Of a DNA stretch of 64,000 nucleotides, positions 35,623 to 58,320 are shown piece after piece. Source of the stretch: Turneriella parva DSM 21527. GTDB taxonomy: Bacteria; Spirochaetota; Leptospiria; Turneriellales; Turneriellaceae. The stretch lies in NCBI RefSeq assembly GCF_000266885.1, contig NC_018020.1, forward strand, positions 744,001-808,000. The letters are read 5' to 3'. The notes under the pieces are model-generated. The model was not told where the DNA came from, made no database searches, and saw nothing but the letters and a program-made list of their open reading frames with translations. Every line of letters starts with the position of its first letter. Position 1 is the first letter of the stretch. The position numbers were made by a program, and so were the translations under genes.

Positions 35623-36906
35623 TTACTCGACCCAACGGCCTTCGGTCGCCCGGTCGTTCAGGCGCACCCAGACGTCGCCGACATTTGCCGCGCGCTTCGC
35701 CTCGACGAGTCGCTGGTTCTGCTGCCCATTCTTGGGTACAGCATACTGGTAAGCACCTGCGGTCTCATTGCTGCAGACAGCAGCGCCGTCGCTATGCACG
35801 CCAGCGGCATTTGAAACCCGCCATTGACCAGCGGCGTTCACGCAGGCGAAACGGTAACGGTTGTTGCAGTTGGCGTCGTTCCAACGGCCGTTCGAATATT
35901 GCATAACGCAGTCTTCGTTGCTGCCATAGTCGTTCGGTTCGCCAGGCGCCCAGCTGAATACCGCCGCAGCGAGGCGGCCGTCGTTGGGGCTGACCATATC
36001 GTAACCCGGCAGATTGACGCCGCACTTCAGCATTTCAGGAATATTTGCGGTAGTCGTCTTGCCTGAGCCGCCGCCGAACCAGGCTGTCAGATTGGTACGG
36101 TCTTCATAGAAACGCACCATCTTGTTCGCGTACGCGTCTGCGCCCATTGCAGCCGAACCGCAATCGGGGTATGAAGTGAATTTTGAAACATTTGATTCAG
36201 GCACTGCGTTGTTTTTGACGTACACCCAGTTCTGCCATTCGCCAGTACCGCAGCTGCCGCTCCACAGTATGATGTTTTTGCCGGCGTTCAGCACCTGCTG
36301 GCGCGTGACGTTAACCGGTGCATCCTGGCAGGTGGTAGTGGGCCGGTAGACCAGATCGCCGAATGCCGATTTCAAGACATTGAGCGCCGCCTGGTAATTG
36401 CCGTCGAGATGCTCTTCGATGTAAAGAATGACAACTTCAGATCGGTTGGCGCGTATGAACGAATTGAGTTCGGCCACACCTTTCGACAAATGGCGGTCGT
36501 ACGTGCTGCATCCGACGTGGTTGCTTTGGCCGTGGCACAACAGCGGGCGGTTACCCCATTCCCATGGCCAGCCTTCCATGCTGAAATACCAGTGAACGTC
36601 GAACTCGATCGCGCGCATATCGAGGCGCAGCTGGTCTCCCACAGAAAAATTGTGGTTTGGGTCGATATAACTGAAAGCCGTTGTATACGCCGAGGCGTTA
36701 TAGGTGTTGTGCGAGTGCAGAAACGTGCTGTCTTTTAAAGGAAGGTTCGCTTCCAGTGCGCGCTGCTGACCGAGCGCTTTTTTCTCCCACGAACGCTGGT
36801 AGATGTCGACCGGCGATTCGGGCTTGGGTTTGCTGCTTGAGCCATTCACCGCGAAAAATGCGGCACCCAGCGCGAGTAAAAATAGAACACCTCGTGTTGC
36901 TTTCAT
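35623..36906 (-). CDS. Secreted PI-PLC-like phosphodiesterase with C-type-lectin-like tail
   Basis: A 427-residue protein. After a signal peptide (ATRGVLFLLALGAAFFAV) comes a PI-PLC X-type domain: FLHSHNTYN (His66), MRAIEFDVHWY (Arg98, Glu101, Asp103) and LLCHGQS (His125), matching the two catalytic His and metal or phosphate ligands. The last 110 residues resemble a C-type lectin: WAPGEPNDYGSNEDC holds an EPN motif and GRWNDANC a WND motif, followed by CSNETAGAYQYAVPKNGQQN and VWVRLNDRATEGRW. The lectin halves appear in reversed order. Start at ATG 36904-36906 behind GGAG. Substrate (phosphoinositide or other) not proven. Confidence 0.78.
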   Translation of the reverse strand: MKATRGVLFLLALGAAFFAVNGSSSKPKPESPVDIYQRSWEKKALGQQRALEANLPLKDSTFLHSHNTYNASAYTTAFSYIDPNHNFSVGDQLRLDMRAIEFDVHWYFSMEGWPWEWGNRPLLCHGQSNHVGCSTYDRHLSKGVAELNSFIRANRSEVVILYIEEHLDGNYQAALNVLKSAFGDLVYRPTTTCQDAPVNVTRQQVLNAGKNIILWSGSCGTGEWQNWVYVKNNAVPESNVSKFTSYPDCGSAAMGADAYANKMVRFYEDRTNLTAWFGGGSGKTTTANIPEMLKCGVNLPGYDMVSPNDGRLAAAVFSWAPGEPNDYGSNEDCVMQYSNGRWNDANCNNRYRFACVNAAGQWRVSNAAGVHSDGAAVCSNETAGAYQYAVPKNGQQNQRLVEAKRAANVGDVWVRLNDRATEGRWVE

Positions 36907-37194
36907 ATCATTGTTAACTCCCTCACATGCTATTGGGCGTTTGCCCGGCAAGAACTGACACCACCCGCGTCAAAGTGTCAATATGTTTCAAAAAAAGCGC
37001 CCGCCGAACAATGAACAATCCGTCAAAAATCGTCATAATTTTTTGGCACCGCCCCATTTTTGAGGTACATAGTTGCGATTTTGCATTTTTCGCGGCGAAA
37101 CAGTAACTAGGTGCCAAATTCACAAATTTATTGGCAACGCCATGCAGTTATTGTTATATGGTCTTGTAACTTTGATCCCGAAAGAGGTAAAAAA
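36907..37194. promoter_or_regulatory. Divergent intergenic region with candidate promoter
   Basis: A 288-base gap without a gene. On the plus strand TTGGCA (37131-37136) and TTATAT (37154-37159) with 17-base spacing could be the promoter of the SPFH gene, whose ribosome-binding site AGAGGT sits before the ATG. TGACAC and GTGTCA around 36956-36980 form an inverted repeat that may be an operator. Nothing else seen. Confidence 0.4.
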
Positions 37195-44424: not shown

Positions 44425-45621
44425 ATGACCCGCTATCAGGTCAAACTTTTGCGCCCGGGCGTGTCTTTCACGAAACCGGTTTATATCGACCCGACGAACA
44501 TGCTCGCCGCGGCGAACGTTATCGTTACGCAGAGTGACCTCGATCGCCTCAACAAGTGGAAAATCGAAGAGGTCTTGTCGGCGGGTGAACCCGTCTATGC
44601 CTCGAAGAAAGACGAAGCCGAGTTTATGGACGGGCAGCAGAAACTCGACATCAAGAATCTGAAAAAAGACCTGAAGAACCTGATCAAGCTCAAACCTTCG
44701 TTCAACAACCTCGCGGCTTCAACCGAGATTGTGCTCAAAAACTTTTACGAGCGCATCAACAGCAACAATAACCCGCAGTCTAATGAAGTGCGCAGCAAGG
44801 CTGAAGAAATTACCAATCTGGTTACCGATAATCCGCTGATTGTCATTTTTGTCGCAGAGTACATCGTCGACCCAAACGTCTACAAGCACGTTATTGGTTG
44901 CGCCATGTACGCGGCGCGGCTCGGGCTCGCGCTTGATTTTTCGCGGCCGAAGATAGTCGAAATGCTTTTTGCCATATTACTCATGGATGTCGGTATGCTC
45001 AAGGTACCGCAGACGATTCTTGACAAAGCTGAAAAGCTGAACGAGACCGAATTGCAGATTATACACGCGCATCCCGTGCATGGCTACCAGATGCTGACGC
45101 AGATTGCAAAAATTAAGAACACGATTGCGTCAGTCGCGCTGCAACACCAGGAACATTACGACGGGTCGGGTTACCCGCGAAAAATCAAGGGCGCAGAAAT
45201 GTCAGAGTACACGCGCGTCGCTTCGATCATTGACTCGTTCAGCGCCATTATCTCGCGCAAGCCCTATCGCAAAAACCGTCTGCCTTACGACGCGATGAAA
45301 GAACTTCTGACGCTTGGCATCTATCGCTACGACCCTGTCTACCTGAAGACATTTCTTGACTCGCATGCAATTTACCCGCTGGGTTCAATCGTCGAGCTCT
45401 CTGACGGTTCTACGGGTATGGTCGTTTACGCTGTAAAAGGCAAGCCAATGCGCCCCGTCGTCTGGATTCTGCGTGACGCCAAGAACAACCGCCCGACGAA
45501 AGTGGAGTTTGCGCACCTGCTCTATGCGGCAGACAAATTCATTTCAAAAGCTAAATATCCCGAAGATGCCGATCTGAATCTCGACATGGAATACGAGCAG
45601 CTGATGAAGCAGCTCGTCTGA
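44425..45621 (+). CDS. HD-GYP-like protein with degenerate metal site
   Basis: A 398-residue protein. The C-terminal two-thirds is an HD-GYP domain, normally a cyclic-di-GMP phosphodiesterase. The GYP part is clear (HQEHYDGSGYPRKIKG), as is HAHPVHGYQML. But the HD pair reads LLMDVGMLKVP, with Met in place of the His, and the H-H before the GYP part reads QH. Metal binding and catalysis are therefore doubtful, and it may act as a binding protein. The first 130 residues are typical of the N-terminal region of this family. Convergent with clpP, with only 3 bases between. Confidence 0.85.
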   Translation: MTRYQVKLLRPGVSFTKPVYIDPTNMLAAANVIVTQSDLDRLNKWKIEEVLSAGEPVYASKKDEAEFMDGQQKLDIKNLKKDLKNLIKLKPSFNNLAASTEIVLKNFYERINSNNNPQSNEVRSKAEEITNLVTDNPLIVIFVAEYIVDPNVYKHVIGCAMYAARLGLALDFSRPKIVEMLFAILLMDVGMLKVPQTILDKAEKLNETELQIIHAHPVHGYQMLTQIAKIKNTIASVALQHQEHYDGSGYPRKIKGAEMSEYTRVASIIDSFSAIISRKPYRKNRLPYDAMKELLTLGIYRYDPVYLKTFLDSHAIYPLGSIVELSDGSTGMVVYAVKGKPMRPVVWILRDAKNNRPTKVEFAHLLYAADKFISKAKYPEDADLNLDMEYEQLMKQLV

Positions 45622-45624
45622 GAA

Positions 45625-46311
45625 TTACTTTCCCTTCTTAGGTTTGGTTTCTTTCGCGGCTTTTTCAGCCTTCGATTTCACCATACCGAGTTCGCTGAAA
45701 TTCGTCAGCACCTTGTCGGCGAGGCCGTATTCGACTGCACCTTTGCCGTCGAGATAGTAGTCGCGGTCGGTGTCTTTTTCAATACGTGACAGCGGCTGCC
45801 CGGTGGTCTCTGCCAGAATGCGATTGAGTTCTGCCCGGGTCTTCTTGATTTCTTCGGCGTGAATCTTGATGTCGATTGCGGGTGCGATAATCTGCCCGCT
45901 GATGAGCGGCTGGTGTATCATGACCTTCGCATGCTCGAATGCGTAACGATGGCCTTTTTCGCCTGCGGTGAGAAGAATAGCCCCCATCGAAGCTGCCATG
46001 CCCATGGTGATGGTATAAACCGGTGATGAGATCATGTTCATGACATCGTAAATTGCCATGCCCGAAGAAATCACTCCGCCTGGTGAATTGATGAAGAAAT
46101 AAATTGGCTTACCTGGGTCGGTCGCCTCGAGAAACATCATGCGCTCGACGAGCATTTCAGCCGTTTTGTCAGTGACTGCCCCCCAGAGAAAAATCTGGCG
46201 CTTTTCAAGAAAACCTTCTGCCAAGCGCTCGCGCAGCGGCGCCGGGCGGTCTTCTTTTTTATTTTCGCCTTCTTCTTCGTCGAAGCGGATTTCAAACGGG
46301 TTGAGCTGCAT
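45625..46311 (-). CDS. clpP: ATP-dependent Clp protease proteolytic subunit
   Basis: A 228-residue ClpP with the Ser-His-Asp triad Ser108 (MGMAASMGA), His133 (VMIHQP) and Asp180 (EKDTDRD). It forms the barrel-shaped protease that works with ClpX/ClpA-type unfoldases. Compared with typical ClpP, it has an acidic/basic 25-residue start (DEEEGENKKEDRPA) and a Lys-rich tail. No clpX or tig gene is next to it, so it may be a second, stand-alone copy. It lies 21 bases after the acetyltransferase gene. Confidence 0.93.
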   Translation of the reverse strand: MQLNPFEIRFDEEEGENKKEDRPAPLRERLAEGFLEKRQIFLWGAVTDKTAEMLVERMMFLEATDPGKPIYFFINSPGGVISSGMAIYDVMNMISSPVYTITMGMAASMGAILLTAGEKGHRYAFEHAKVMIHQPLISGQIIAPAIDIKIHAEEIKKTRAELNRILAETTGQPLSRIEKDTDRDYYLDGKGAVEYGLADKVLTNFSELGMVKSKAEKAAKETKPKKGK

Positions 46312-46332
46312 ACCTGCAATATACGATTTGCG

Positions 46333-46776
46333 TCACAGGACGGACAGAAATTTCTGCATCAGTATCGCATCGTCACCGTTGGCGTAATAGCGTTTGCGCC
46401 GCGCAAATTCGCTAAAACCGGCCTTTGCATAAAATCGAACGGCAGAGATATTTTGGGCTGCTACTTCGATGAGGCACCGCCCGCCCGAAATCTGCGACTC
46501 CGTTAAACGCAGAAGCTCGTTTGCGAGCCCGCGACGCCTGTGTGCAGTGAGCACACCAATTTTGTGGATCTCGTAATCATCGCCAGCCCGGGCAGCTGAA
46601 CAAAACCCAACGGCAGAGCCATCGGTTATGGCAAGATAAATGGTCACGGCGTCTGATTGAATTTCAGATTGCCACTGTTCGTCTGAATACGCTGAAGAAC
46701 CGAAAATTTGCGCATCGAGCCAAGCAATGACCGGTAGATCGCCGCGGGTGGCGACCCTTATCTCTGCGCCGATCAA
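46333..46776 (-). CDS. GNAT-family N-acetyltransferase (RimI-like)
   Basis: A 147-residue GNAT protein. The acetyl-CoA loop reads IGVLTAHRRRGLANELL (Q/R-x-x-G-x-G/A), followed by EVAAQNISAVRFYAKAGF, the usual end of RimI-type enzymes. RimI acetylates ribosomal protein S18; the substrate here is not certain. A TTG start at 46776 overlaps the TGA of the small exported-protein gene and fits the family's N-terminus (AEIRVATRGDL). Confidence 0.85.
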   Translation of the reverse strand: MIGAEIRVATRGDLPVIAWLDAQIFGSSAYSDEQWQSEIQSDAVTIYLAITDGSAVGFCSAARAGDDYEIHKIGVLTAHRRRGLANELLRLTESQISGGRCLIEVAAQNISAVRFYAKAGFSEFARRKRYYANGDDAILMQKFLSVL

Positions 46777-47051
46777 TAGTTTGAGAACAGCGCGTCGACG
46801 ATCACCTTCTGCTCTTTGAGGCTCATGTCGCCGCAACGGCGCATGATGCGTATCGCATCGATCTTGCGGCCGCGTTTTGCGAGGGCTGCTATGTCTTTTT
46901 TTTCTTGCGGTGTTAGGTCGAGCCCTGAGAGTGTTGGCCGCTCATTGTTGTAGGCCGGTGTCTTGCACGGTTGTTTTTCAGGGACTGCAGGTTCTTGCGC
47001 TGCCAGGGCGACCGTCAACAGAACGAAAGCGAATAGGCTGCTCGGTTTCAT
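46773..47051 (-). CDS. Small exported protein with L7/L12-C-like helix pair
   Basis: A 92-residue protein with a signal peptide (MKPSSLFAFVLLTVALAAQ). The end GRKIDAIRIMRRCGDMSLKE resembles the K-I-x-A-I-K-x-x-R-x-x-x-x-L-x-L-K-E-A stretch in the C-terminal domain of ribosomal protein L7/L12, which also appears in unrelated proteins. It overlaps its neighbours on both sides (ATGA at the start, TTGA at the end), forming a tight three-gene unit. Function unknown. Confidence 0.6.
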   Translation of the reverse strand: MKPSSLFAFVLLTVALAAQEPAVPEKQPCKTPAYNNERPTLSGLDLTPQEKKDIAALAKRGRKIDAIRIMRRCGDMSLKEQKVIVDALFSNY

Positions 47052-47431
47052 ACAAACTTTCTGATTATAAAGTTCGTGAATTGCAGCGCAGCGGCACTCA
47101 CCATCAGCGTGCGCGCAGATTTAATCGTGAGACGATCGGTGAGCTTATCGGCCACCCAGAAAATGATGACGTTAAAGATGAAACTGACGAGCAGGCTAAA
47201 GAGCCCGAGCGAAATGAAGTTGAGTAGCTTTTTCACAATGACTAAGGTCGCAATATTGAGCACAGTCGCCGTACCGCCGAGCAAGAACCCGACAACCACA
47301 TTCACCCCGACAAGAATCAGCGCCGCCACGGGAATCGCCCCGGCTTCGATATGAAAATCAGGCATCGCCTTATTGAGCGCGTAGAGCAGGAGGCAGAAAA
47401 CCCCGAACATGACAATCAGTTGAATAAGCAT
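47048..47431 (-). CDS. Phage holin 4-like small membrane protein
   Basis: A 127-residue membrane protein with four hydrophobic segments (LIQLIVMFGVFCLLLYAL, VAALILVGVNVVVGFLLGG, LGLFSLLVSFIFNVIIFWVA), as in the holin superfamily IV (PF04020-type) proteins common in bacterial chromosomes. The name reflects family only; no lysis gene or phage is nearby. First gene of the unit leading to clpP. Confidence 0.75.
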   Translation of the reverse strand: MLIQLIVMFGVFCLLLYALNKAMPDFHIEAGAIPVAALILVGVNVVVGFLLGGTATVLNIATLVIVKKLLNFISLGLFSLLVSFIFNVIIFWVADKLTDRLTIKSARTLMVSAAALQFTNFIIRKFV

Positions 47432-47503
47432 GCGCTAAGGCCATTGCCCCCAATGCTATGGCAATCGATTTTAGCACCCGCCTGGTCACCAAGCCCCTCG
47501 ATG

Positions 47504-48541
47504 TTAAAAAAGCGGAGTAAACCCGTGGTCGGTCTTGCTCGTCAGAATCTCGAATGCCGCGCGGTTGCGGGTGCTGAGCTTCGCCGTCAGCCCGATGCGG
47601 CTTTTTTCGGTTAAAGAGACCTCGCAAGCTGCGACTTTTGTGTTGAGACAGGTTTTGACATCACCCGGCGGGTTGTAATAGTTGAGCGCGACAAAGTCTT
47701 GCCTGTCGGCATAAATGCGCCCTTCGATTTTGAGATCCGCATTTTCGCCCGAAAAAGACCAGTCAAAGTAATCCACATTCGCTTTATTGCGAATTGCCTG
47801 CCAGTAGGTATTGAGCACATAATCGTTGCCCTTGTGGCGCAGGGTAATCGGTGTAAGATAAGGTGTCATGAGGGGCCCGAACTTGAGCTTCGCAGAGGCT
47901 ACCTCAAGAAATGAATCGGGTTCGCCGTCGAAACCTGCAACCTGACCCCAGGCATATTCATCGGTATGCCGCGAGCCCCAGTTATGGTTTTGGCTGCCCT
48001 GCCACGCATCGATCGCATGCTTCTTGCCATTCACGACAAAGGTGCCGCTAAAGGTCACGAATGGCTGCGCGATCAAGAGCTTTGCCCGCGGCAGCGGTGC
48101 ATCGTAAGAAGCGAGCGGCATCGGAAAAATCGGCTGGTTGTTCTTCGCGCCTTTGATCTGTTCGATAGAAAGATTCCACTCGATCTTGTTTTCACCGCGA
48201 TTTTGCGCTGAACCTTTGAGCGAAGTGGAGTTCAGCGTCGCGCCGTCGAAATCCAAATCGAAATTGGTGTTTGAGTAGCGCGCGCCGGCCAGGGGAAACT
48301 CAGATTTCGCCGCCACCGGCGCTTTGCCCTTTTCAAACCAGATTGCCCAAAGCTCGCCCATGGGCTCTTTTATGCCGGCCCCCTTATCGTTCTGGTAGAT
48401 CGTATAGCGTATCCAAAAAGCGGTGCCGCTTGCAGTGTCGTTCGCGCGCATAAAATAACTTTCATAATGGCCGCCGCTCTGCGCGCCGCGAAACCGGGTG
48501 AAGTTCGCCGTCGCCCTTGCTTTTTCGAGTTGTACCTGCAT
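47504..48541 (-). CDS. AttH/CrtC-like lipocalin-type protein
   Basis: A 345-residue protein with the beta-rich pattern of the CrtC/AttH/tocopherol-cyclase-like superfamily. Clues are the early SGGHYESYFMRAN, the central WQGSQNHNWGSRHTDEYAWG and the late FDWSFSGENADLKIEGRIYA. Members hydrate carotenoids or cyclise tocopherols, but many have no known job. No signal peptide is seen. Downstream of the 127-residue gene and separated from it by an inverted repeat. Confidence 0.7.
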   Translation of the reverse strand: MQVQLEKARATANFTRFRGAQSGGHYESYFMRANDTASGTAFWIRYTIYQNDKGAGIKEPMGELWAIWFEKGKAPVAAKSEFPLAGARYSNTNFDLDFDGATLNSTSLKGSAQNRGENKIEWNLSIEQIKGAKNNQPIFPMPLASYDAPLPRAKLLIAQPFVTFSGTFVVNGKKHAIDAWQGSQNHNWGSRHTDEYAWGQVAGFDGEPDSFLEVASAKLKFGPLMTPYLTPITLRHKGNDYVLNTYWQAIRNKANVDYFDWSFSGENADLKIEGRIYADRQDFVALNYYNPPGDVKTCLNTKVAACEVSLTEKSRIGLTAKLSTRNRAAFEILTSKTDHGFTPLF

Positions 48542-48582
48542 GCGCTCATTGTCTGACCGAGCGACAGCCCGTCCATTATTTT

Positions 48583-48598
48583 ATGACACCTGTGTCAT
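48583..48598. repeat. Inverted repeat between two minus-strand genes
   Basis: ATGACAC-CT-GTGTCAT, 7-bp arms with a 2-base centre, between the end of the 127-residue gene and the start of the CrtC-like gene. It could be an operator for the latter or a weak terminator for the former. Confidence 0.4.
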
Positions 48599-48601
48599 TA
48601 T

Positions 48602-48985
48602 TTACGGATGCGGTGACGGGGTTTCCCTGAGCGCGGGTAAAAAGCCCTGCGTGAACGCAAAATAGAGGATTTCTTCGAGCTGCCAGGTAAGGCTGAGCCC
48701 CCGCTGTTGCAGCCTTTTCATGCCGCGCAGCGTTTTGATTGTCAGCGTTGCGCGGGTACCCTGCAGCTTCTCACCCCGCGGCCGCTGCACGCCCGACCGG
48801 GCAAGCCGGTGCCCGTGCGGACTCGTGTAATAAACGGGTTCAACCGCAAAATTGCGGTAGCGCTCGTTCTGCACCTTGTCAAAAAATCGGTCTGCGATAA
48901 ATTCAAGCGAACGCACGCTGGGTAAATGCGCGAGCGCCCGGCGCGCGGGCGCAGACAGTGCAAAGGTCATTTCAATCGTTGCCAT
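48602..48985 (-). CDS. Small basic protein, unknown function
   Basis: A 127-residue basic cytoplasmic protein (MATIEMTFALSAPARRALAH). A strong GAGGAG ribosome-binding site precedes the ATG, so it is very likely real. It has two predicted helices at the N-terminus and a basic middle (LARSGVQRPRGEKLQGTRAT). No motif recognised; nucleic-acid binding is possible from the charge. It lies 78 bases from the MSEP-CTERM gene. Confidence 0.6.
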   Translation of the reverse strand: MATIEMTFALSAPARRALAHLPSVRSLEFIADRFFDKVQNERYRNFAVEPVYYTSPHGHRLARSGVQRPRGEKLQGTRATLTIKTLRGMKRLQQRGLSLTWQLEEILYFAFTQGFLPALRETPSPHP

Positions 48986-49063
48986 GGTATCTCCTCAAAG
49001 GGTGGCCCCTTAATGATTAAATACCCAAAAACGCCGATTTTTTCTCACGCCACAGAAAAAAAG

Positions 49064-51751
49064 TTAAAACTCTGACCGGGTTCTGCGCATTTTTTTTCGC
49101 ATGAACCAGGCGGGCAAAAGCAGCACCAGCAATAACCATGAGGATGGCTCAGACATACGCGCCCGTTCGCCTGTATCGAGTTCATTTTTCGCGTTCAGCA
49201 TCTTTTTGTGCAGCTCGCTGAGTTTCAGTCTTTGTGCTTCGGTTTCGAGTACAATGGAACCCGTCGCCGCATTGAGCACTCCGGTTTGCAGCGCAGCGAC
49301 GACAGCACGGGGTCTCGAGCCGAAATCACCGAGCACGAATCTGTGGTGGTGGGCAGCACCGTCTATGGTGTTATTCTTCTCGCCGGCGACATTGGCTGCC
49401 ACCAGGCGCGCTGCCGGCGCAAAATACCGGTCGCCGGCCTTACGCACCGGCAGCCGCAGCCGTGGCCTGTCAGCGCGAGGCTGCCCCGCAAAACTCCATG
49501 TTTGCGCTTTGCCGGCAGAGACCTGCAAGAAGCCGTCGCTATCACCGTAGTAGGGCATCAGATACGAGAGGTTGTGCCAATCGGCGAAAGGCGGTTGCTG
49601 CGTCAGCACGACAAAGACGGGATAGTCTGCCTTTGTCATCTGCTCATAAATGAGCGCACGCAGGGCCAACTCGAGAAAAAAACCCTCACGGTTCTCTGGG
49701 CAGGTAATGGCATTGCCCGGGCTCAAAGCCTGCGTCGTGATGCCCGAATTCACATAGCTGATGCGCGCACCTGCATTATTGAGACCGAGGTACCGGGCGG
49801 CGATTTCTGCGTCTTGAGCATAAGAAGTACCGGCATCGGCGCTGCAATCGACAATATAATGCAGGTATGGGGTACGGCTGCCGAGCTGATGAAGTTTTGC
49901 CGCCGGTAGCAGCGCATAATCACCCGTCGTTGCGGTTAACGGTGCCTGCAAATCTTTGCCCGCGAGATTCACGACCCGGCCACCGAGGTTCAGAGTTGCA
50001 TCACCCGCATGCGTGAAGTGCAGCCTCACATCGCGAAAGCCAGCTGCTGGCACGGGAAATACCTTCCAGCGGAGCAAATTCGCTTTTTCGTAGTAGATAA
50101 GGCTTGGGTCGCGCATTCTTTCAGTAACGCGGTTGTAAACCCAAAGCGCCAGACTGCGCGTCGTGATTTGCGCGGGCACTTCGACGCCGTCAATCGTCAG
50201 CCAATGTTGTGACAGAAAAACATTGTCGGGCAGGTTGATATAGGTGTCGAGCTCTGCGTTGCGTGAGAGATCCTCATTTTTTATACGAATGCGCAACACT
50301 GTCTCAGCCATCATGCCTTTGTCATTTTTCTGCACGGTGACATCGGCAACGCGAACGCGCGTTACGCTCGCCGGCGGCTGCGCGGTTGCCCTGCGCTTTT
50401 CACCCAACAAGACGAGGCGCAGCTGGCTGCGCAATGCTTCAGAAATTTCAGCACCATCGAGAACTATATTGCGGTAAAGGCGATCGTAGATTGGTACACC
50501 GGCATCGTTCATAAACTGCCGTCCGGGTTTCGCCGCGCGCTTCTCGGTCAGCGCAATGATCTTGCGCGCATTCACGTTTGGCTGCTGGTTCACTGAGAGC
50601 GGCGCGTGTTGTACATACTCAATGGCGCGCACAAGCATCAGCCGGTCGAGGTAAGTGTCGGTGAGCACCAGCGCGGGCAGAAGCGAAAGACCTGCCACAG
50701 CAAGAGCGAATATTCTGGCGTTGGAATATTCAGCCTTCAGGGCCACGAAATCTTTTTTCAGACGCATTAGCTGCATCGCAGCCGCAAAATATGGTATGAG
50801 CAGCAAGAACCCAAGGCCGATGGCCGCGATGAGCAGCAATGCAAGCGGTACGTAGAGCAAGAAGACGACGCAAAAATAGAGCACAAAAACAAAACCTGAA
50901 AGCCGCGCCACCACGCAGAGCGTGAAGAGCGCTCTGTGCCGGCTGTCGGGCAAGAGATAGACAAGCGCATTGAAGGCGGCCAGCAGCCAGAATTCGGGCG
51001 CATTAAAATTACCGAGCACCATTTGGCTTTCGCGCGCAACGGGCCCGTAGGCATTGAGTAAGAGCCCCACGAGCGGCAACACACCTATGAAGACAAGCCG
51101 CAGCGACCAGTTGACGCCCGGCTCTGCCAGTTTCGCGGTGTGTTTTGAGGCAACATGCAAGAGCAGGCGCAGCATCACGAACGAAAATACTGTCGTGAGG
51201 CCAATGAGGTACATCTGCTGCAGATCTGCGCCGATGCCGGTCCCAAAGAAATTGCGAAACACATTAAACGAGATGTATGCCACAACGGGTAATGCAATCG
51301 CGGCAATAATGTTTGCTACGAGATTGCGCTGGCTCGAAATCTGAAAATGCGTTGCCAGATAAAACAACACAAAATAGAATATTGGTATAACCGCTGAAAA
51401 AATGAGCGTCATATAATCGCCTTGATCGAATATCCATTCTGCGACAGTAATCGATACGTGCACGTAGCGCAGGTAGAGATAAACGCCCGCAGCAACTGCA
51501 ACGGCGAGGCTAATCAAGATTTTCACCGGCACAAGTTGCTGCCGCATCAAGTACCAGAAGCCGACCGCTGCTGCTGCGAAACCTGGCAACATCGTCAACA
51601 ACAGGCCGACACTGAATCCCGATCTCTGTTGCATTGTCAGGTCGGGCCAGGCGATACTGAGCATCGATATAGCGCCAATAAGCGATACCAGGGAAGGCAA
51701 GGCCCCCGCGACGATGAGGCCGATGTTAAGGGTTCGATGGTTGTTGTGCAT
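49064..51751 (-). CDS. MSEP-CTERM sorted membrane protein, single target of exosortase K
   Basis: An 895-residue protein. Residues about 1-370 carry around ten membrane segments. A long outer region follows, including a VIT-like segment (RDPSLIYYEKANLLRWKVFP, about 545-565). The C-terminus is a sorting signal: MSEP at 866-869, a hydrophobic stretch (SSWLLLVLLLPAWFM) and a basic end (RKKMRRTR). This is the MSEP-CTERM type, known as the target of exosortase K. AGGA precedes the ATG. It overlaps the exosortase gene by 26 bases. The function of the mature protein is unknown; it may be anchored or trimmed at the cell surface. Confidence 0.85.
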   Translation of the reverse strand: MHNNHRTLNIGLIVAGALPSLVSLIGAISMLSIAWPDLTMQQRSGFSVGLLLTMLPGFAAAAVGFWYLMRQQLVPVKILISLAVAVAAGVYLYLRYVHVSITVAEWIFDQGDYMTLIFSAVIPIFYFVLFYLATHFQISSQRNLVANIIAAIALPVVAYISFNVFRNFFGTGIGADLQQMYLIGLTTVFSFVMLRLLLHVASKHTAKLAEPGVNWSLRLVFIGVLPLVGLLLNAYGPVARESQMVLGNFNAPEFWLLAAFNALVYLLPDSRHRALFTLCVVARLSGFVFVLYFCVVFLLYVPLALLLIAAIGLGFLLLIPYFAAAMQLMRLKKDFVALKAEYSNARIFALAVAGLSLLPALVLTDTYLDRLMLVRAIEYVQHAPLSVNQQPNVNARKIIALTEKRAAKPGRQFMNDAGVPIYDRLYRNIVLDGAEISEALRSQLRLVLLGEKRRATAQPPASVTRVRVADVTVQKNDKGMMAETVLRIRIKNEDLSRNAELDTYINLPDNVFLSQHWLTIDGVEVPAQITTRSLALWVYNRVTERMRDPSLIYYEKANLLRWKVFPVPAAGFRDVRLHFTHAGDATLNLGGRVVNLAGKDLQAPLTATTGDYALLPAAKLHQLGSRTPYLHYIVDCSADAGTSYAQDAEIAARYLGLNNAGARISYVNSGITTQALSPGNAITCPENREGFFLELALRALIYEQMTKADYPVFVVLTQQPPFADWHNLSYLMPYYGDSDGFLQVSAGKAQTWSFAGQPRADRPRLRLPVRKAGDRYFAPAARLVAANVAGEKNNTIDGAAHHHRFVLGDFGSRPRAVVAALQTGVLNAATGSIVLETEAQRLKLSELHKKMLNAKNELDTGERARMSEPSSWLLLVLLLPAWFMRKKMRRTRSEF

Positions 51752-52247
51752 TTTTAATCCTATAGAGAAGCAGTGAATATGAAATTAAGAGAGACAGAAA
51801 GACCGCGATGCCCACAGCCTCGTGCAGCCACGCGCGCCCGATGGCGAACGGCTGCAGATTCAAAAAGATCGCGACCCGCAAGAAATTTGCCGCGAGCGTC
51901 ACCGCGTAAACAGCGGCTGTCAGAAAACCCAGATGCAGCAATATACGCGCGGGCACCAGTTTGAATCGACTGGGCCAAGGCAGCGCCTCGGGAAAGAGCC
52001 AGGCAGTCGTGATCGCGGCGATCACGAAGAAATTGATACCGGCACAACTGAAATCAAGAAAGAAATCTGAAAAGTAAAATTGACCGGCACGCTCGTCATA
52101 ACCTTCACCGGTGTATACAGAGAGCAGCAATGCAAGCGGATATAGAAACACACGGTGCACACCCACAGAGGCCGTCATCGCGGCCAATTTCACCGCGGCT
52201 GCAATCCCCAGCAAACCTACCGGCAAAAGCCACGCAGCGCAACGCAT
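51726..52247 (-). CDS. xrtK: Exosortase K
   Basis: A 173-residue membrane protein with several hydrophobic segments and the exosortase catalytic triad: Cys (FLDFSCAGINFF), Arg (AANFLRVAIF) and His (AWLHEAVGIAVF), equal to Cys68, Arg124 and His142 from the chosen start. Exosortases cleave and transfer proteins at PEP-CTERM-type tails, probably near the P in the motif. Exosortase K is a small type with one target, here the overlapping downstream gene. I use the ATG at 52245-52247; a TTG at 52283 would add 12 residues. Confidence 0.88.
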   Translation of the reverse strand: MRCAAWLLPVGLLGIAAAVKLAAMTASVGVHRVFLYPLALLLSVYTGEGYDERAGQFYFSDFFLDFSCAGINFFVIAAITTAWLFPEALPWPSRFKLVPARILLHLGFLTAAVYAVTLAANFLRVAIFLNLQPFAIGRAWLHEAVGIAVFLSLLISYSLLLYRIKNAQQPSNP

Positions 52248-52328
52248 CGCAGGCGAACGTCGGGTCACGCGACCAACCTGCAAGCGCGATTTCGATTGCC
52301 GTCGTATGCTCGCGGCAGTCTTTCAGCC

Positions 52329-53081
52329 ATGAAATATCAGACTCCGAAATATATCTGTGCGTTCATTTTTCTTCTGCTCGCGAGCTGCAGCAGCCTGCCG
52401 AAAGGCCAGCCAGGCGAAGCGGCCGAACAAATGACGCAGCGCATTCTGGCTGCCGCCGACTATGAAAAATGGAAAGCGACCAGCGCCGTGACGTTTGTTT
52501 TTCGCGGCGACGACCGCATTTTCTGGGACAAAAAGCGCAAACTCATCGAAGTGCAGTTCAAGAAAAATCTGGTTCAGTTCAGTGAAATCACCGGCAAGTC
52601 GCTCTGCTTTGAAGGCGAAAGACGCCTCACCGACGAATGTGGTGAACTCACGGCGGCGGCAGTGAAACGCTTCTACAACCACACGTATTGGCTGAACCCC
52701 GCTTTCCATATCGATACGCCCAATGCGGTTAGGGCAATCGCCGAAGAAAACAAACTGCTGGTGACCTTTAAATCGGGCGGTGCGACACCCGGCGACTCTT
52801 ACCTGTTCACTACAGACGACGAGGGCAAACTCAGCGAGATGCGCATGTGGGTGTCGACTCTGCCTTTGAAGGGGGCACGCGCCACCTTCGCGAATTACCA
52901 GAAATCGGCAACGGGAGTGCGCGTCGCACTCGACCATAAGGTTGCTTCACTCGCAAACGTTAACCTCACCGAGTTGCAGATGTTTGCAGTTTACCCCGAA
53001 GCCGGTAAACCCGATAGGTTTCAGGGCCTGTTAGAGCTGACCGGCGGCCCCGGAAGCGAATCGCTTAACCGTAAGAAATAG
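52329..53081 (+). CDS. Putative lipoprotein, unknown function
   Basis: A 250-residue protein with a clear lipobox (FLLLASCSS). The mature part is mixed and has a LolA-like feel in VTFVFRGDDRIFWDKKRKLI (beta strands binding lipid), but I do not recognise a family. Start at ATG 52329; the open frame extends upstream over the exosortase gene. Divergent from the exosortase gene, and convergent with the small lipoprotein gene, sharing a 22-bp palindrome. Confidence 0.65.
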   Translation: MKYQTPKYICAFIFLLLASCSSLPKGQPGEAAEQMTQRILAAADYEKWKATSAVTFVFRGDDRIFWDKKRKLIEVQFKKNLVQFSEITGKSLCFEGERRLTDECGELTAAAVKRFYNHTYWLNPAFHIDTPNAVRAIAEENKLLVTFKSGGATPGDSYLFTTDDEGKLSEMRMWVSTLPLKGARATFANYQKSATGVRVALDHKVASLANVNLTELQMFAVYPEAGKPDRFQGLLELTGGPGSESLNRKK

Positions 53082-53101
53082 TTTTACCGATCGGTAAAAC
53101 T
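53080..53101. terminator. Perfect palindrome shared by two convergent genes
   Basis: A 22-bp perfect palindrome (arms AGTTTTACCGA, no loop spacer) that contains the stop codons of both convergent lipoprotein genes; it can serve as a bidirectional terminator. Confidence 0.65.
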
Positions 53102-53425
53102 CACGGCGCCGGTATCACGGTGCACACGCACCGCCGGCTTCACATAGGCCTGAATCGTCTTGTATGGATAACTCTCGCGCGTTACATGATAGTAGTCGCC
53201 GAGAATCAGCACGTGATCGCGCGCTGGCTTTTCGCACCAGTGCTTGTCGATTCGGCTTTCGCAGCGCTGGCGAAAAACAGCCTCGAGGTGCGGCTTCGCA
53301 AGCCTCAAAGCTTCTGCCGCTGAGACACGCGACCGCGCAGTACTCTCATCGCCGGGCGCAACCATCTCGGGGCTCGCGCAGGCCTGAGCAAATACCACAA
53401 GCAAAAAAGACATGATGGCCCGCAT
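53084..53425 (-). CDS. Small putative lipoprotein, unknown function
   Basis: A 113-residue protein with a hydrophobic start (SFLLVVFAQACAS) and likely lipidation at the Cys. The mature part ends in a conserved-looking HRDTGAVSFTDR typical of small beta proteins that report on a matrix value. A second ATG four codons in is possible. No family recognised. Confidence 0.55.
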   Translation of the reverse strand: MRAIMSFLLVVFAQACASPEMVAPGDESTARSRVSAAEALRLAKPHLEAVFRQRCESRIDKHWCEKPARDHVLILGDYYHVTRESYPYKTIQAYVKPAVRVHRDTGAVSFTDR

Positions 53426-53549
53426 GCGTATGCTAATCAGACCAAGAAGCCAGTCGGCGTCAATCGCAATACGGCGTCGCAGCGCTGCAGCAAAAGCGTC
53501 GAAAAATCAATTGTGGTCGACATGCCATAAATGTTAGCCCCGATGGGCT

Positions 53550-53930
53550 ATGGGGCTCGCCTACGCCGACATTGAACTCAGTAACCCACGCCGCGATGAC
53601 CTAAAATCGCTCAAAGTCAAGAGTCTCGTCGATACGGAGGCGGTGATGCTCTGCCTGCCTGAGCATCTGGTGACACAACTCGACCTCGATGAAAATGGTA
53701 CACGCGACGTTTCGACCGCTGATGGCCGGTCTCACAAGGTGCCTTACGTCGGCCCGGTGAAGGTGAGGTTTGGCGACCGCCTTTGCTTTGTGGGCGCGCT
53801 GGTTATGGGCGACGAACCTTTGCTCGGCGCAGTGCCGATGGAAGATATGGACCTGGTCGTGCACCCGCTTTCGCGCACCTTGTCAGTTAACCCCGAAAGC
53901 CCGAATTTTCCCCACCACAAAATTAAGTAA
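53550..53930 (+). CDS. Clan AA aspartic-protease-like protein with DTE in place of DTG
   Basis: A 126-residue single-domain retropepsin-like protein. The flap and core match the bacterial clan AA family: LVDTEAVMLCLPEHLV where the active site should read V-D-T-G, and LLGAVPMEDMDLVVHP, followed by the conserved ending VNPESPNFPHHKIK. The Gly is replaced by Glu (codon GAG, one base from GGG), so catalysis is in doubt. Start at ATG 53550. Downstream lies the BFD-like gene. Confidence 0.75.
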   Translation: MGLAYADIELSNPRRDDLKSLKVKSLVDTEAVMLCLPEHLVTQLDLDENGTRDVSTADGRSHKVPYVGPVKVRFGDRLCFVGALVMGDEPLLGAVPMEDMDLVVHPLSRTLSVNPESPNFPHHKIK

Positions 53931-54001
53931 CCAGGCAAACCTGGCTGTCCCATAGCGAAATATACTTGCCGCCCCGCCCCGGCTATAATACCCTTTAACC
54001 G

Positions 54002-54238
54002 ATGGATCTCGCATGCCTCATGCGCCCCCGAAAGCTCTGCCTCTGCAAAGGCGTGAGCAAACAAGATATCGAAGAGGCAGTTGCAGCCGGCGCCGACAAC
54101 TTTCGCCAGCTGATCGCCAAAACCCACGCCACGACCGGCTGCGGCACATGTTACCGAGACGTCTACGCAGCATTTCGCGAAGCCCGCGAGCAGAAGGTAT
54201 GTACCCTGACGGGCCAAATCGGCCTGAAATTTCCGTAG
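54002..54238 (+). CDS. BFD-like [2Fe-2S] protein
   Basis: A 78-residue protein with the four iron-sulphur Cys of the BFD domain: LCLCKGVSKQDIEEAV and TTGCGTCYRDVYAAF. Bfd releases iron from bacterioferritin, but the same domain is fused or stands beside other redox enzymes; no bacterioferritin gene is here. Start at ATG 54002 or possibly at a later in-frame ATG (MRPRKLCLC). Confidence 0.82.
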   Translation: MDLACLMRPRKLCLCKGVSKQDIEEAVAAGADNFRQLIAKTHATTGCGTCYRDVYAAFREAREQKVCTLTGQIGLKFP

Positions 54239-54528
54239 GTGACCGGGCGGGAGCTCGCGAAGCATAACACACAAGGCGCATTCTCTTGGCTATGCGAATT
54301 GCGATGCCGCCAAGCGCGGCAAATCAGCGCAAATTCGGGCGGCTTTGCGCCCCTCGCATAGCGAATCGCTTCGATTCGCGGAGGAATTTACTTTGATGAG
54401 CAGTTCGCATGGGCAAGATAATGCGCGTCGGCGAGTTCCCGCCTGGTCACTTAGGCAAGTTTCTGGCAAGGGCACAATTGCTTGCCCAAATGCGGTTTTT
54501 TGCCGTATAATAAGAAGAGACCGCGATA
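54239..54528. promoter_or_regulatory. Intergenic region with promoter and repeated GGCAAG boxes
   Basis: No convincing gene in these 290 bases. A promoter fits at TTGCCC (54482-54487) and TATAAT (54506-54511) with 18-base spacing, directly before the TPR gene. GGCAAG boxes occur at 54412, 54454 and 54465, with the inverse CTTGCC at 54481 overlapping the -35. GCGAATCG-CTT-CGATTCGC (54361-54379) is an 8-bp inverted repeat. Confidence 0.55.
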
Positions 54529-56427
54529 ATGAGGATATCCCCCTTATACCCTGCTGCGGCTTTGTTGGCCGCCCTGACCGTATTTGCAGGTAACCTGCGC
54601 GCCAAAGAGATTCGGGAAAACCCGGTTCAGAAAAAGCTCGAACGCTACCTGCCCTATAGCATCGACGAAATTGAGGCCTCAGCGGCCTCGATCAATTTTA
54701 ACCCCCGTCTGGTCGCTGAAGAACTTGGGCAAAAACTCGACCAGTTTTACCTCAGCGACCCGTCAGAAAAAAAGATCGCCAACCGGCAAGACAATGATTC
54801 GAATGCAGCCTGGTACCGCAAAGAGTGGAACGTTAACCTGCAGCGACTTTTCATGCGCGACCTGCTCGCGCGCACGCAGAAGTCCTTTATTATCAAAGAA
54901 GCTCCTAATCTCGCCGTGCTGCACTACAACTTTGCGCTTGCGCAGATGAAGCTGAAAAAGCCGTACCATGCGGCTTTTCATTTTGCACAGTCGCTGCGCT
55001 ATCGCAGCCTCAGGCTCGACGATGAAATTTATGTCGATAGAGATCGGCTGCAGCTGACGAAGGCGGGCGCTGCTGAAATTGCCGACGCCGATGCCTACCG
55101 CGAAGCCAAGAAGCAGCTCGATGAAAAAACGCGTGAAAAGCGCCGGCTCGAAGAAGAACTTGTGCTACTCGATGATCGCTCGCGTTCGCCTGAGTTGAAT
55201 GCCCCATCGACCACGGGCAATTCGGTCGAGGCTCAGCGGCAAAAGCAGCAGCAACTGATCGCCGACCAGAGAGAAAAGAGTCGCCAGGCACTTCAGCGTG
55301 TGCGCGACGAATTCGAAAAGGCGAAACAGGCATTCGATAACGCCAAAATAAAGTACACCGAACACGAGAAAACCTACAACCGAAAATCGTCTGATATGCT
55401 GATCGAGATGGCCGCGCTCGTGCGGCAGATCGAAGATACGATCAAAGAGCGCTCGAAAGTTTTGAACAAGAAGGCACTCTACAAGACCAACTTCAACCAG
55501 ACGCTGCAGCACGACTACAGCCAGAATCGACAGTTCACGGCGTTCGCCAACGTGCTCGAAGCGGCGACACGGCTCGACCCTGAAAATCCCGCGATCAATT
55601 TTCAGCTCGCTGAAGAATACCGCACATCGCAAGACGTTTCGCGCAGCATCGATTCGTACGAGCGTGCGCTCACGGCCAATGAAAAACCGCGGCCAGGCTT
55701 TGAGCTGAAAGACGAGCAGATTCGCAAGGCTCACGCTTCGCTCGGGGCGCTTTATTATGCCAAAAGCCGGTACGTCGACGCAGCATTTTTTTATGAAAAG
55801 GCGCACGCCGAGACGCCGAATAGCCCTGAGAAGCAGAACCTCAGTTGGCAGCTCGGCAAACTGCACGTCGAAAAAACCGGAAACTATGAACGGGCGGCGG
55901 CGCTTTTCGAAGAATACCTCAGAAGCATCGCGACCCTCAACCCAAGCGATGTGAGCGACCGCACACAATGGATAAAAGAACGCTTCACAGCGAATAAATA
56001 CCTCATGCACATCTACGGCAAAAAGAGCGACAAGACGCAGGTGATGCGCACGATGCAGGGCGCCGCTGCTGCACACCAAGACCTTGAAACGCTGATCACC
56101 GAGCTGCGGCAGCGCAATAACAAAACCTACAACGACATGCAGGTGGCGAAAAAGGCGCTTTTCGACGACGTGCGCAGCCGCGAACTCAACAATTACCTGA
56201 AGCTCGAATCTGACTTTGAAAAGCAGAAGCGCGAGCTCGCGATTATCGAAGCGGGCCGCAATAGTTTACCGCTCGCGCAGTTTTACTCGCAATACGCCGG
56301 TTTTCTCGAGTCAGAAAATGACATACAGGGTGCCCTCGCGGTCTATGGCACAGCTGAAAAACACGGTCTCGGCGCCGACCATGCGCGGCGTGAACAGGGG
56401 CGGCTGCGCGCGCAGTACCTGCAGTGA
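54529..56427 (+). CDS. Exported TPR and coiled-coil protein
   Basis: A 632-residue protein with a signal peptide (AALLAALTVFAGNLRA). Helical repeats at about 115-165 are followed by a long coiled coil (AYREAKKQLDEKTREKRRLE ... DQREKSRQALQRVRDEFEKA, about 185-320). TPR units come next (AINFQLAEEYRTSQDVSRSI, ASLGALYYAKSRYVDAAFFY, about 350-470), then more helices. Likely a periplasmic scaffold of the envelope or flagella. It has its own good promoter with a short leader. Confidence 0.8.
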   Translation: MRISPLYPAAALLAALTVFAGNLRAKEIRENPVQKKLERYLPYSIDEIEASAASINFNPRLVAEELGQKLDQFYLSDPSEKKIANRQDNDSNAAWYRKEWNVNLQRLFMRDLLARTQKSFIIKEAPNLAVLHYNFALAQMKLKKPYHAAFHFAQSLRYRSLRLDDEIYVDRDRLQLTKAGAAEIADADAYREAKKQLDEKTREKRRLEEELVLLDDRSRSPELNAPSTTGNSVEAQRQKQQQLIADQREKSRQALQRVRDEFEKAKQAFDNAKIKYTEHEKTYNRKSSDMLIEMAALVRQIEDTIKERSKVLNKKALYKTNFNQTLQHDYSQNRQFTAFANVLEAATRLDPENPAINFQLAEEYRTSQDVSRSIDSYERALTANEKPRPGFELKDEQIRKAHASLGALYYAKSRYVDAAFFYEKAHAETPNSPEKQNLSWQLGKLHVEKTGNYERAAALFEEYLRSIATLNPSDVSDRTQWIKERFTANKYLMHIYGKKSDKTQVMRTMQGAAAAHQDLETLITELRQRNNKTYNDMQVAKKALFDDVRSRELNNYLKLESDFEKQKRELAIIEAGRNSLPLAQFYSQYAGFLESENDIQGALAVYGTAEKHGLGADHARREQGRLRAQYLQ

Positions 56428-56470
56428 CTGATAATGGTTGCCGCGCGCTGATTCGCGGGCATGTTGGCCC

Positions 56471-56614
56471 ATGACAGTGCTCTCGTTTCCCTTTTGGATA
56501 ATATTCTCAGTCGTGAGCCCGGTACTCATATTATTGCTGGTGCTGGGCGTCGGCATGTTCACCGCACCGGCGCTCAAACAAAAACCACCCCTGATTGAGA
56601 AGTATCCGTCGTAA
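56471..56614 (+). CDS. Tiny membrane protein with PFW motif (first of a pair)
   Basis: A 47-residue single-span protein: a short start, one hydrophobic segment (FWIIFSVVSPVLILLLVLGV) and a polar end (KQKPPLIEKYPS). It resembles its neighbour at 56675-56866: L-x-x-PFW-x-I ... SP-x-L-x-L ... G. The pattern in two tandem ORFs supports that both are real. No function known. Confidence 0.55.
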   Translation: MTVLSFPFWIIFSVVSPVLILLLVLGVGMFTAPALKQKPPLIEKYPS

Positions 56615-56674
56615 ATACGGGCGGGCGCGGAGCGATCTCGCTTGCCACCAGTAAGGAGCATTCTGCGCTGCCCC

Positions 56675-56866
56675 ATGATATCATTACTCATGCCATTCTG
56701 GTTTATCATCGCGATCTTCAGCCCGGCACTCTTGCTCTTCTTTTTCGTCGGCATTCAATCAGGCGCCAAGGCACCGGTTAAGGCGAAGGCACCGACGGGG
56801 CAGATGCATATGTCAGCGCTGCCCGTGGCCGATGGCCCGGGAAGCGAAGCAAAGCAGCCGGTCTAA
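56675..56866 (+). CDS. Tiny membrane protein with PFW motif (second of a pair)
   Basis: A 63-residue protein with one hydrophobic segment (PFWFIIAIFSPALLLFFFVG) and a Lys/Pro-rich tail. It parallels the protein at 56471-56614. A GTAAGGAG sequence lies about 17 bases before the ATG, so a start slightly upstream (CTG at 56663) is possible. The VOC-protein gene follows after 38 bases. Confidence 0.55.
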   Translation: MISLLMPFWFIIAIFSPALLLFFFVGIQSGAKAPVKAKAPTGQMHMSALPVADGPGSEAKQPV

Positions 56867-56904
56867 TGGATTCTGGCCATCTGAAAACCCGCTGAAAAAT
56901 TTCT

Positions 56905-57327
56905 GTGAAACCGCGCATCTCGGTGATTACACTCGGTGTTGCGGATCTCGAACGTTCTGTAGCCTTTTACCGTGACGGACTTGGTCTCGAGACGCAAGGC
57001 ATCATCGGCAAAGAATTTGCGCACGGCGCCGTTGCGTTCTTCGAGCTTTCGGGTGGGCTCAGGCTCGCGCTCTGGCCACGAAGCAGCATCGCGCACGACT
57101 CGGGGCTTTCACCTGCAATGCCCTCTGCAACAGAAATGACCCTGGGCCACAACGTCATGAGCCGCAACGAGGTCGACGAGGTGATGCTACAGGCAGCGCG
57201 CGCCGCAGCCAAAATTGTGAAACCAGCGGCTGAAACTTTTTGGGGCGGCTACGCGGGCTATTTTCAAGACCCCGACGGTCATCTGTGGGAGGTAGTTTAC
57301 AACCCGCAGATGCTGCCGGTTGAATGA
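56905..57327 (+). CDS. VOC/glyoxalase-family protein
   Basis: A 140-residue protein of the vicinal oxygen chelate fold: ISVITLGVADLERSVAFYRD at the start and GYFQDPDGHLWEVVYNP at the end, with Glu and His able to bind metal. Function could be glyoxalase, dioxygenase or antibiotic binding; family only. Start is GTG at 56905. Convergent with the OmpL47-like gene. Confidence 0.88.
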   Translation: MKPRISVITLGVADLERSVAFYRDGLGLETQGIIGKEFAHGAVAFFELSGGLRLALWPRSSIAHDSGLSPAMPSATEMTLGHNVMSRNEVDEVMLQAARAAAKIVKPAAETFWGGYAGYFQDPDGHLWEVVYNPQMLPVE

Positions 57328-57330
57328 GAC

Positions 57331-58239
57331 CTACTCTTCTGTGTAAAACGTCTCTGTCTTGACTTCTTCTTTGTTACCCGCTTTGTCGATCGAATAGAAC
57401 TGCAGAACACCCATGTCTCCAATGCCCTTGAGGTCGGTGTAGGTCAGGCGCTTGCCGTATTCAATGAACGGCAGTGCATTCATGTCTTTGCCAAAAGTCA
57501 CAATACGGTAAAAGGTTTTGGCGCGACCTGACTCCGCATCTTCGACCAAAAACACCACGCTGCTGTTCTTACCGACAGTGATGCCGCGTTTGGTGTGCAA
57601 CGGCTCGGCGATGACGACCCGGGTCTTGGGCGGGTTCAGTTCAACCTTAAATACGTAATTCTTGGTGAAGACGACTTCATTCGCTGAATTTTCGAGGTTT
57701 ACCTGCATCTTGTACGTGTCGGGCTTGTCGAACACCAACGGCTCGCGGTATTCGATAAATTCACCCTCACCAATTTTGTACTTGGTCACGAGATTCGGCT
57801 GAACGGGAAGTTCAATGCGGCTACCCAGCAAATATTCTGTCTGGCCTTCTTGCACGAGCGGTAGCTTGGGCTCGCGGTAAGCCTTGCGCAGATAATCTTT
57901 CACGGCATAGCTGCGGCTATAAGCCCCGGCAACCCCGGTTTTGTGGATAGAGCGCACGCGAAAAAACTGCACCTCTGGCGCGAGCGCTTCGCGAAACACC
58001 TTTTCTTTAGTACGCACGACCTTTACACGCGCGCCGCCAATCTTCTCGGCGTCGGTTGCCTTCGACAGATCGATGTCAGAAAATTCGATATCGGTTGCGA
58101 CCGCATCTGCAGGGGCATTGATGTTCAGAGAGAATACCTTTGCCTCTTTAACTGCGGGCTTAACCGGTTCAGCCTGGGCATTGAGCAGAGACGAAAAGAC
58201 CAATACCGCGACAGGTATATAGAGAAGGGAACGCTTCAT
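57331..58239 (-). CDS. Exported OmpL47-like beta-sandwich protein (second copy)
   Basis: A 302-residue protein with a signal peptide (LLYIPVAVLVFSSLLNAQA). The body repeats the layout of the protein at 24627-25883: YKMQVNLENSAN, then LHTKRGITVGKNSSVVFLVE and the end LQFYSIDKAGNKEE with the D-x-A-G-N signature. It is probably surface-exposed or periplasmic. Start at ATG 58237-58239, which leaves 81 bases to the helical-repeat gene. Confidence 0.68.
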   Translation of the reverse strand: MKRSLLYIPVAVLVFSSLLNAQAEPVKPAVKEAKVFSLNINAPADAVATDIEFSDIDLSKATDAEKIGGARVKVVRTKEKVFREALAPEVQFFRVRSIHKTGVAGAYSRSYAVKDYLRKAYREPKLPLVQEGQTEYLLGSRIELPVQPNLVTKYKIGEGEFIEYREPLVFDKPDTYKMQVNLENSANEVVFTKNYVFKVELNPPKTRVVIAEPLHTKRGITVGKNSSVVFLVEDAESGRAKTFYRIVTFGKDMNALPFIEYGKRLTYTDLKGIGDMGVLQFYSIDKAGNKEEVKTETFYTEE

Positions 58240-58320
58240 AGGCGCAAATAATCTGCGCACAACACGACCGGTCAATGATAATGCGCCAGCTGCGTTACTT
58301 GCGTGAAAGCCGCCGGCGCG

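Follow-up and report, generated by a model that had tools for sequence, protein, structure and literature searches.

We found that a small exosortase of Turneriella parva and the polytopic membrane protein whose gene it overlaps probably constitute a minimal exosortase system, one enzyme with one client, in which the enzyme would remove the tail of its client near an MSEP motif and transfer the new C-terminus to an acceptor. The pair belongs, as a divergent representative, to a two-gene system that is catalogued but apparently unpublished. A preliminary description of this DNA had called the purpose of the pair undescribed, which holds in part: the XrtK and MSEP-CTERM families are already named in NCBIfam (TIGR04287 and TIGR04286), and our literature search returned no paper on either, nor any paper in the open-licence literature naming MSEP-CTERM, XrtK, XrtN, XrtX or PID-CTERM. 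The present analysis adds a one-to-one rule of enzyme and client in 20 genomes, a decayed head resembling that of the inter-alpha-inhibitor heavy chains (ITIH), and a tail that changes with the enzyme.

The gene pair and its products

T. parva H(T) is a free-living spirochaete of the Leptospiraceae (PMC3746428). Its genome comprises 4,409,302 bp in two contigs, and the window, by which we mean the whole stretch of 64,000 nucleotides analysed, covers bases 744001-808000. The following features of the pair are given in window coordinates.

51726..52247, (-) strand: XrtK-type exosortase, 173 aa, five predicted membrane helices; TIGR04287 49.8 bits; aligned with 66 relatives; AlphaFold2 pLDDT 88.9
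52044..52046, (-) strand: codon of the catalytic Cys68 (DFSCAGIN), invariant in 67 XrtK sequences
51876..51878, (-) strand: codon for the triad residue Arg124, which does not vary among the 67 XrtK sequences
51822..51824, (-) strand: codon for the triad residue His142, which does not vary among the 67 XrtK sequences
49064..51751, (-) strand: probable substrate, MSEP-CTERM polytopic membrane protein, 895 aa; TIGR04286 397 bits (cut-off 150); AlphaFold2 pLDDT 83.0
50597..51751, (-) strand: N-terminal polytopic membrane part, residues 1-385, about ten helices by AlphaFold2 and hydropathy
49952..50365, (-) strand: VIT domain, residues 463-600; PF08487 28.1 bits, structural match to ITIH1
49454..49879, (-) strand: VWA-like domain with decayed metal site, residues 625-766, from VIA-align matches to VWA domains and residue counts
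49163..49246, (-) strand: conserved stalk before the tail, residues 836-863, ETEAQRLKLSELHKKMLNAKNELDTGE; 68% and 96% identity within the genus
49064..49156, (-) strand: MSEP sorting tail, with MSEP at 49145-49156, a hydrophobic stretch, a basic end and the stop

The exosortase gene runs from an ATG at 52247 to a stop ending at 51726, within a mechanical ORF that begins at a TTG (52283). An overlap of 26 bases with the target gene had been reported, and the ORF coordinates place it at 51726-51751; the MSEP motif, hydrophobic stretch and basic end ascribed to the target are likewise present, as the 895-residue protein terminates in RMSEPSSWLLLVLLLPAWFMRKKMRRTRSEF and its C-terminus reads ...RARMSEPSSWLLLVLLLPAWFMRKKMRRTRSEF. 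The target lies far above the NCBI cut-off for TIGR04286 (397 bits against 150), whereas the exosortase falls just below that for TIGR04287, the exosortase K model (49.8 bits against 55, over most of the model). We therefore refer to the enzyme as XrtK-type; being under the cut-off, it would escape automatic naming as exosortase K. Compared with the NCBIfam XrtK/MSEP-CTERM system, T. parva has the same pair, gene order, tail and architecture, but its enzyme is about 5 bits short of the cut-off and shares only 16-32% identity with the 66 other aligned XrtK.

Among the 67 aligned XrtK sequences the only invariant positions are Cys68, Gly70, Arg124, His142 and Gly146, that is, two glycines and the Cys-Arg-His triad that had been recognised in the T. 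parva enzyme; this is the membrane-embedded triad of the exosortase/archaeosortase superfamily. All 67 sequences match the XrtK model, with exosortase N the next specific family (26 of the 67), and 63 of the 67 match TIGR04178, the general exosortase signature. The T. parva enzyme itself has no match to TIGR04178 at E 0.01 or to Pfam PF09721 at the threshold used, so that its placement in the superfamily comes from its relatives and its residues and not from its own score. The AlphaFold2 model of the enzyme is confident (pLDDT 88.9) and consists mostly of membrane helices; neither a fold search (best E 0.46) nor sequence comparison returned a solved relative of XrtK.

The target had been described as having about ten membrane segments and a VIT-like outer region, a fair account: a simple hydropathy scan gives nine segments plus the tail, the AlphaFold2 model (pLDDT 83.0, pTM 0.83) has 10-11 long helices, and the VIT domain is a Pfam match above cut-off (PF08487, 28.1 bits against 26.5). 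In a Foldseek search, which was dominated by the VIT and VWA domains and hardly probed the membrane part, the best matches were to inter-alpha-inhibitor heavy chain 1 (ITIH1; E 4.7e-8). VIA-align gives the match to ITIH1 over residues 463-841 with a moderate Z of 8.4, the VIT being also the Pfam match just given, and aligns several VWA domains, again at moderate Z values, with residues ~624-766. The target has, then, a VIT followed by a VWA fold, as in ITIH-like proteins. The MIDAS metal site (DxSxS, Thr, Asp) is not intact in the target family: the Asp is kept in 70 of 71 targets, the first Ser in 65, the second Ser in 10, the Thr in none (GGF replaces GGT) and the last Asp in 46, with Gln at this position in T. 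parva. Judging from these residue counts, the metal site is decayed throughout the family. In the AlphaFold2 model the protein ends in a helical stalk (~838-853), a low-confidence linker around MSEP (860-870) and a last membrane helix (871-894), and the stalk directly before the tail is the most conserved stretch of the target within the genus.

Enzyme and substrate numbers per genome

Exact MSEP-coding words occur 30 times in the T. parva genome; at just one of these sites does the motif lie at the end of a long ORF with a hydrophobic stretch and then basic residues behind it. A tail profile of 32 columns, constructed from 35 tails, matched a tail with an EP end in this genome only at the target (E 8.6e-11), the next match (E 0.027) covering the hydrophobic part alone. 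We ran the same profile on 20 XrtK genomes from Spirochaetota, Bacteroidota, Balneolota and Bacillota and obtained one clear EP-end match per genome in all 20, always in a frame of target length; the weaker matches cover the hydrophobic part, except for a few in the noise (E of at least 0.2). No second XrtK was found in the T. parva genome, and nothing in it scored above cut-off for PF09721 (exosortase) or PF07589 (PEP-CTERM). A 16-bit PF09721 fragment was considered as a second exosortase and rejected, as it falls on ORFs of transporter-like and shikimate/kinase-like proteins, and the best PEP-CTERM candidate elsewhere (E 8.4) is noise. The dedicated exosortase with a single target that the preliminary description proposed is thus supported: T. 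parva has one XrtK and one MSEP tail, and the 19 other XrtK genomes likewise have one MSEP tail each; the genome-wide tail search, on which that proposal could have foundered, gave no further MSEP or PEP tails above cut-off. Exosortase A/PEP-CTERM systems, by contrast, have many targets and an exopolysaccharide cluster, and the T. parva pair shows neither, the former across the genome and the latter among the neighbours scanned. No polysaccharide gene families were found among those neighbours, in agreement with what had been stated for the surroundings of the pair.

A tocopherol-cyclase/lipocalin-like protein (window 47504-48541; PF14249 24.6 bits, cut-off 26.6) adjoins the pair across the genus; a single small ORF at 53550-53930 encodes a clan AA aspartic protease (TIGR03698, 65.1 bits, above cut-off), and a protein encoded at 35626-36951 combines a C-type lectin domain with a weak PI-PLC-X match. 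Within the genus the pair outpaces its syntenic neighbours in divergence (window 44425-58275 compared with L089, L091 and L092). In genome G110, identities are 32% for XrtK and 42% for the target, against 91% for ClpP and 76% for the lipocalin-like gene; in G202 they are 61% and 62-69%, against 80-98% for most neighbours. A GNAT gene (46333-46836) diverges likewise fast (44% and 52%). The target is missing from three of the seven congeneric genomes (G062, G141 and G152), all of which keep the lipocalin-like neighbour in a neighbourhood that is different or cut by contig ends.

Relatives of the target were collected by means of two motifs of its body and not by its tail, so the resulting set of loci is unbiased towards any particular tail. 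XrtK is encoded directly upstream of the target, usually with overlap, in 70 of the 80 named relatives. The remaining ten comprise two loci cut by contig ends (L107 and L170) and eight full-length targets without XrtK, seven from Hymenobacter and one from a Bernardetia metagenome. Every one of the 78 XrtK loci with a readable tail (74 distinct, four genomes having been met twice) has an xEP motif: MSEP in 59, MDEP in nine, MTEP in five and others in five. In divergent loci of the same phylum (L093 and L094, from G092 and G222, and L088, from G170) the tail motif is SPEP or ADEP instead of MSEP, and the target gene overlaps that of an XrtK-type enzyme. The pair also occurs in metagenomes labelled Bacillota, Thermoclostridium, Marinisporobacter and Ruminiclostridium (L155, L160, L161 and L162), which suggests that an outer membrane may be dispensable.

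Changes of tail and enzyme among relatives

In the seven Hymenobacter genomes whose targets lack XrtK, the enzyme is absent both beside the target and genome-wide, and the tails have no EP; instead they read PTAVP[LI]D or a variant, followed by hydrophobic and Arg residues. Scanned genome-wide with the PID-CTERM model (NF046080, cut-off 26 bits), six of these seven tails scored above cut-off and the seventh (L150) scored 20.6; on whole proteins, of which two were scanned, the model gave 35.9 bits (L163) and 25.1 bits (L176). Six of the seven genomes encode exosortase X, and the seventh is a metagenome assembly. Further PID-CTERM proteins are present in all seven, several of them in that assembly. 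In several Hymenobacter genomes XrtX adjoins a small PID-CTERM protein. MSEP is kept in all nine XrtK-positive Hymenobacter, four of which also have XrtX. In a tree of target bodies without their tails, the targets with a PID tail group as a single clade (98/98) nested among those with MSEP, and no xrtK remnants above noise were found upstream of them, where four intact controls scored 178-193 bits. On this tree the tail changed once, and seven species have retained the new form; the tail tracks the enzyme present while the target body stays.

Could the tail have drifted by chance once it fell out of use, with no transfer of the protein to exosortase X? That the tree holds only one event and that one of the seven tails (L150, 20.6 bits) lies below the PID-CTERM cut-off would suit such a history. 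However, P[LI]D, the hydrophobic stretch and the Arg residues are retained in all seven despite long divergence, with XrtX encoded in six of the genomes and other PID-CTERM proteins in each, and we regard chance drift as improbable. Since the nearest families of XrtX are XrtF and XrtY, an exosortase subfamily different from that of XrtK and XrtN, the Hymenobacter change looks like the capture of a client by another system. Exosortase X/PID-CTERM (NF046081/NF046080) would, to judge by the tail, serve a homologous client in the seven Hymenobacter, but it differs from the XrtK system in having several clients per genome, an enzyme not encoded next to this client and membership of that other subfamily. 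The Bernardetia metagenome (L152) is an exception to the pattern of tail and enzyme: its target has an SSEP tail, no XrtK was found, and XrtX is present (G303:C59:160299-160781), with no PID-CTERM match in that genome.

Several VIT matches in other Leptospirae proved to be the VIT protein of the exosortase N system (TIGR04477, 614-704 bits in three genomes), which has an xPEP tail and a gene overlapping that of exosortase N. Like XrtK, exosortase N (TIGR04476/TIGR04477) is dedicated to one client, a membrane-plus-VIT protein, with which its gene overlaps, and it is the nearest specific family to XrtK; it differs in being longer (435-465 aa), in lying downstream of its target and in the PEP-type tail of its client. 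In the VIT region, XrtN clients are recognised by the MSEP-CTERM model (33-54 bits) and MSEP clients by TIGR04477, which in one case matches the membrane region too. On the strength of these reciprocal matches the XrtK and XrtN clients are homologous, and the enzymes are most likely homologous as well. Such clients appear to have been passed between exosortases: XrtK with MSEP, XrtN with PEP in other Leptospirae, and XrtX with PID in some Hymenobacter. The marine proteobacterial sortase target (TIGR03788) is also a VIT-VWA protein and is often the sole target of a dedicated sortase, one unrelated to the exosortases and acting with an LPXTG-like tail; the only TIGR03788 match seen here was a weak one, to an XrtN-type client (13.8 bits).

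Proposed processing and its alternatives

In the model that we favour, the target would be anchored in the inner membrane by its about ten helices with the VIT-VWA part outside, and the MSEP helix would serve as a temporary last anchor with its basic residues inside. XrtK would recognise the tail, and at the outer face Cys68, aided by Arg124 and His142, would attack the polypeptide close to MSEP. With the tail helix discarded, the new C-terminus would pass to a membrane or envelope acceptor, for which an aminophospholipid, by analogy with the proposal for archaeosortase A, is the likeliest candidate. The parts of this model differ in strength. The gene pair, the triad, the tail and its uniqueness, and the change of tail with enzyme are read directly from sequence. 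Cleavage of the tail by XrtK is highly probable, given that tail and enzyme change together; transfer to an acceptor in preference to plain hydrolysis is reasonably likely; and a lipid as that acceptor, suggested by analogy, is a tentative choice. We consider the model as a whole, in which the tail is cut off near MSEP and the new C-terminus transferred, to be likely. Release of the target, one of the two outcomes envisaged in the preliminary description, is improbable, as the protein has about ten further membrane segments to hold it; those helices would keep it in the membrane while its C-terminus is re-attached.

Four observations weigh against the model: a protein that already has about ten membrane helices would gain nothing obvious from re-anchoring, the Hymenobacter tail change counts as one event, the Bernardetia locus combines an SSEP tail and XrtX without XrtK, and the T. 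parva enzyme lies under the XrtK cut-off with no TIGR04178 match at E 0.01. XrtK might instead only hydrolyse: trimming of the tail helix would bring about maturation or activation of the target, or leave the VIT-VWA head free to move, with nothing attached; a new anchor is superfluous where about ten other helices are left, and no lipid- or sugar-handling gene lies beside the pair among the genes scanned. For archaeosortase A, however, lipid attachment requires a phosphatidylserine-synthase homologue and cleavage requires that gene and a decarboxylase, the group used being proposed to be lipid-attached ethanolamine (PMC7157517). Loss of lipid-synthesis genes there blocks attachment and cleavage alike (PMC7157517), so that cutting and transfer look coupled in the superfamily, and we judge hydrolysis alone to be rather unlikely.

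The strict one-to-one pairing and the overlapping genes would also suit an obligate complex, in which XrtK is a non-protease membrane partner or chaperone and the MSEP helix a mere last transmembrane anchor. Such a partner would not account for the triad and two glycines being the sole invariant residues in 67 XrtK, and a plain anchor needs neither the retention of EP with XrtK nor its replacement by another sorting motif when XrtK is lost; we therefore hold a non-catalytic role to be very improbable. A bolder extension of the transfer model is that the target is a bacterial counterpart of the inter-alpha-inhibitor heavy chains, whose C-termini are covalently joined to sugars (PMC7170535). An exosortase would then join the VIT-VWA C-terminus covalently to an envelope sugar or polymer, with K, N or X sufficing if the tail fits, and an inner-membrane protein would become a covalent strut to the cell envelope. 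The VIT plus VWA fold shared with ITIH1 over residues 463-841 (Foldseek E 4.7e-8, VIA Z 8.4) is in keeping with this; the heavy chains, however, are animal proteins that are secreted, carry a metal site and have neither a polytopic membrane part nor an exosortase, and we think it quite unlikely that the likeness extends so far.

Most bacterial exosortase systems have many substrates, which seems to have hampered the identification of what these enzymes leave on the C-terminus. With two genes, a single client and no further exosortase match above cut-off in the genome, T. parva is about the simplest place in which to study it, and the Hymenobacter change of tail and enzyme is a natural swap that predicts which enzyme takes which tail. 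The swap also suggests that selection keeps the processing of a membrane VIT-VWA protein and not the particular enzyme that performs it.
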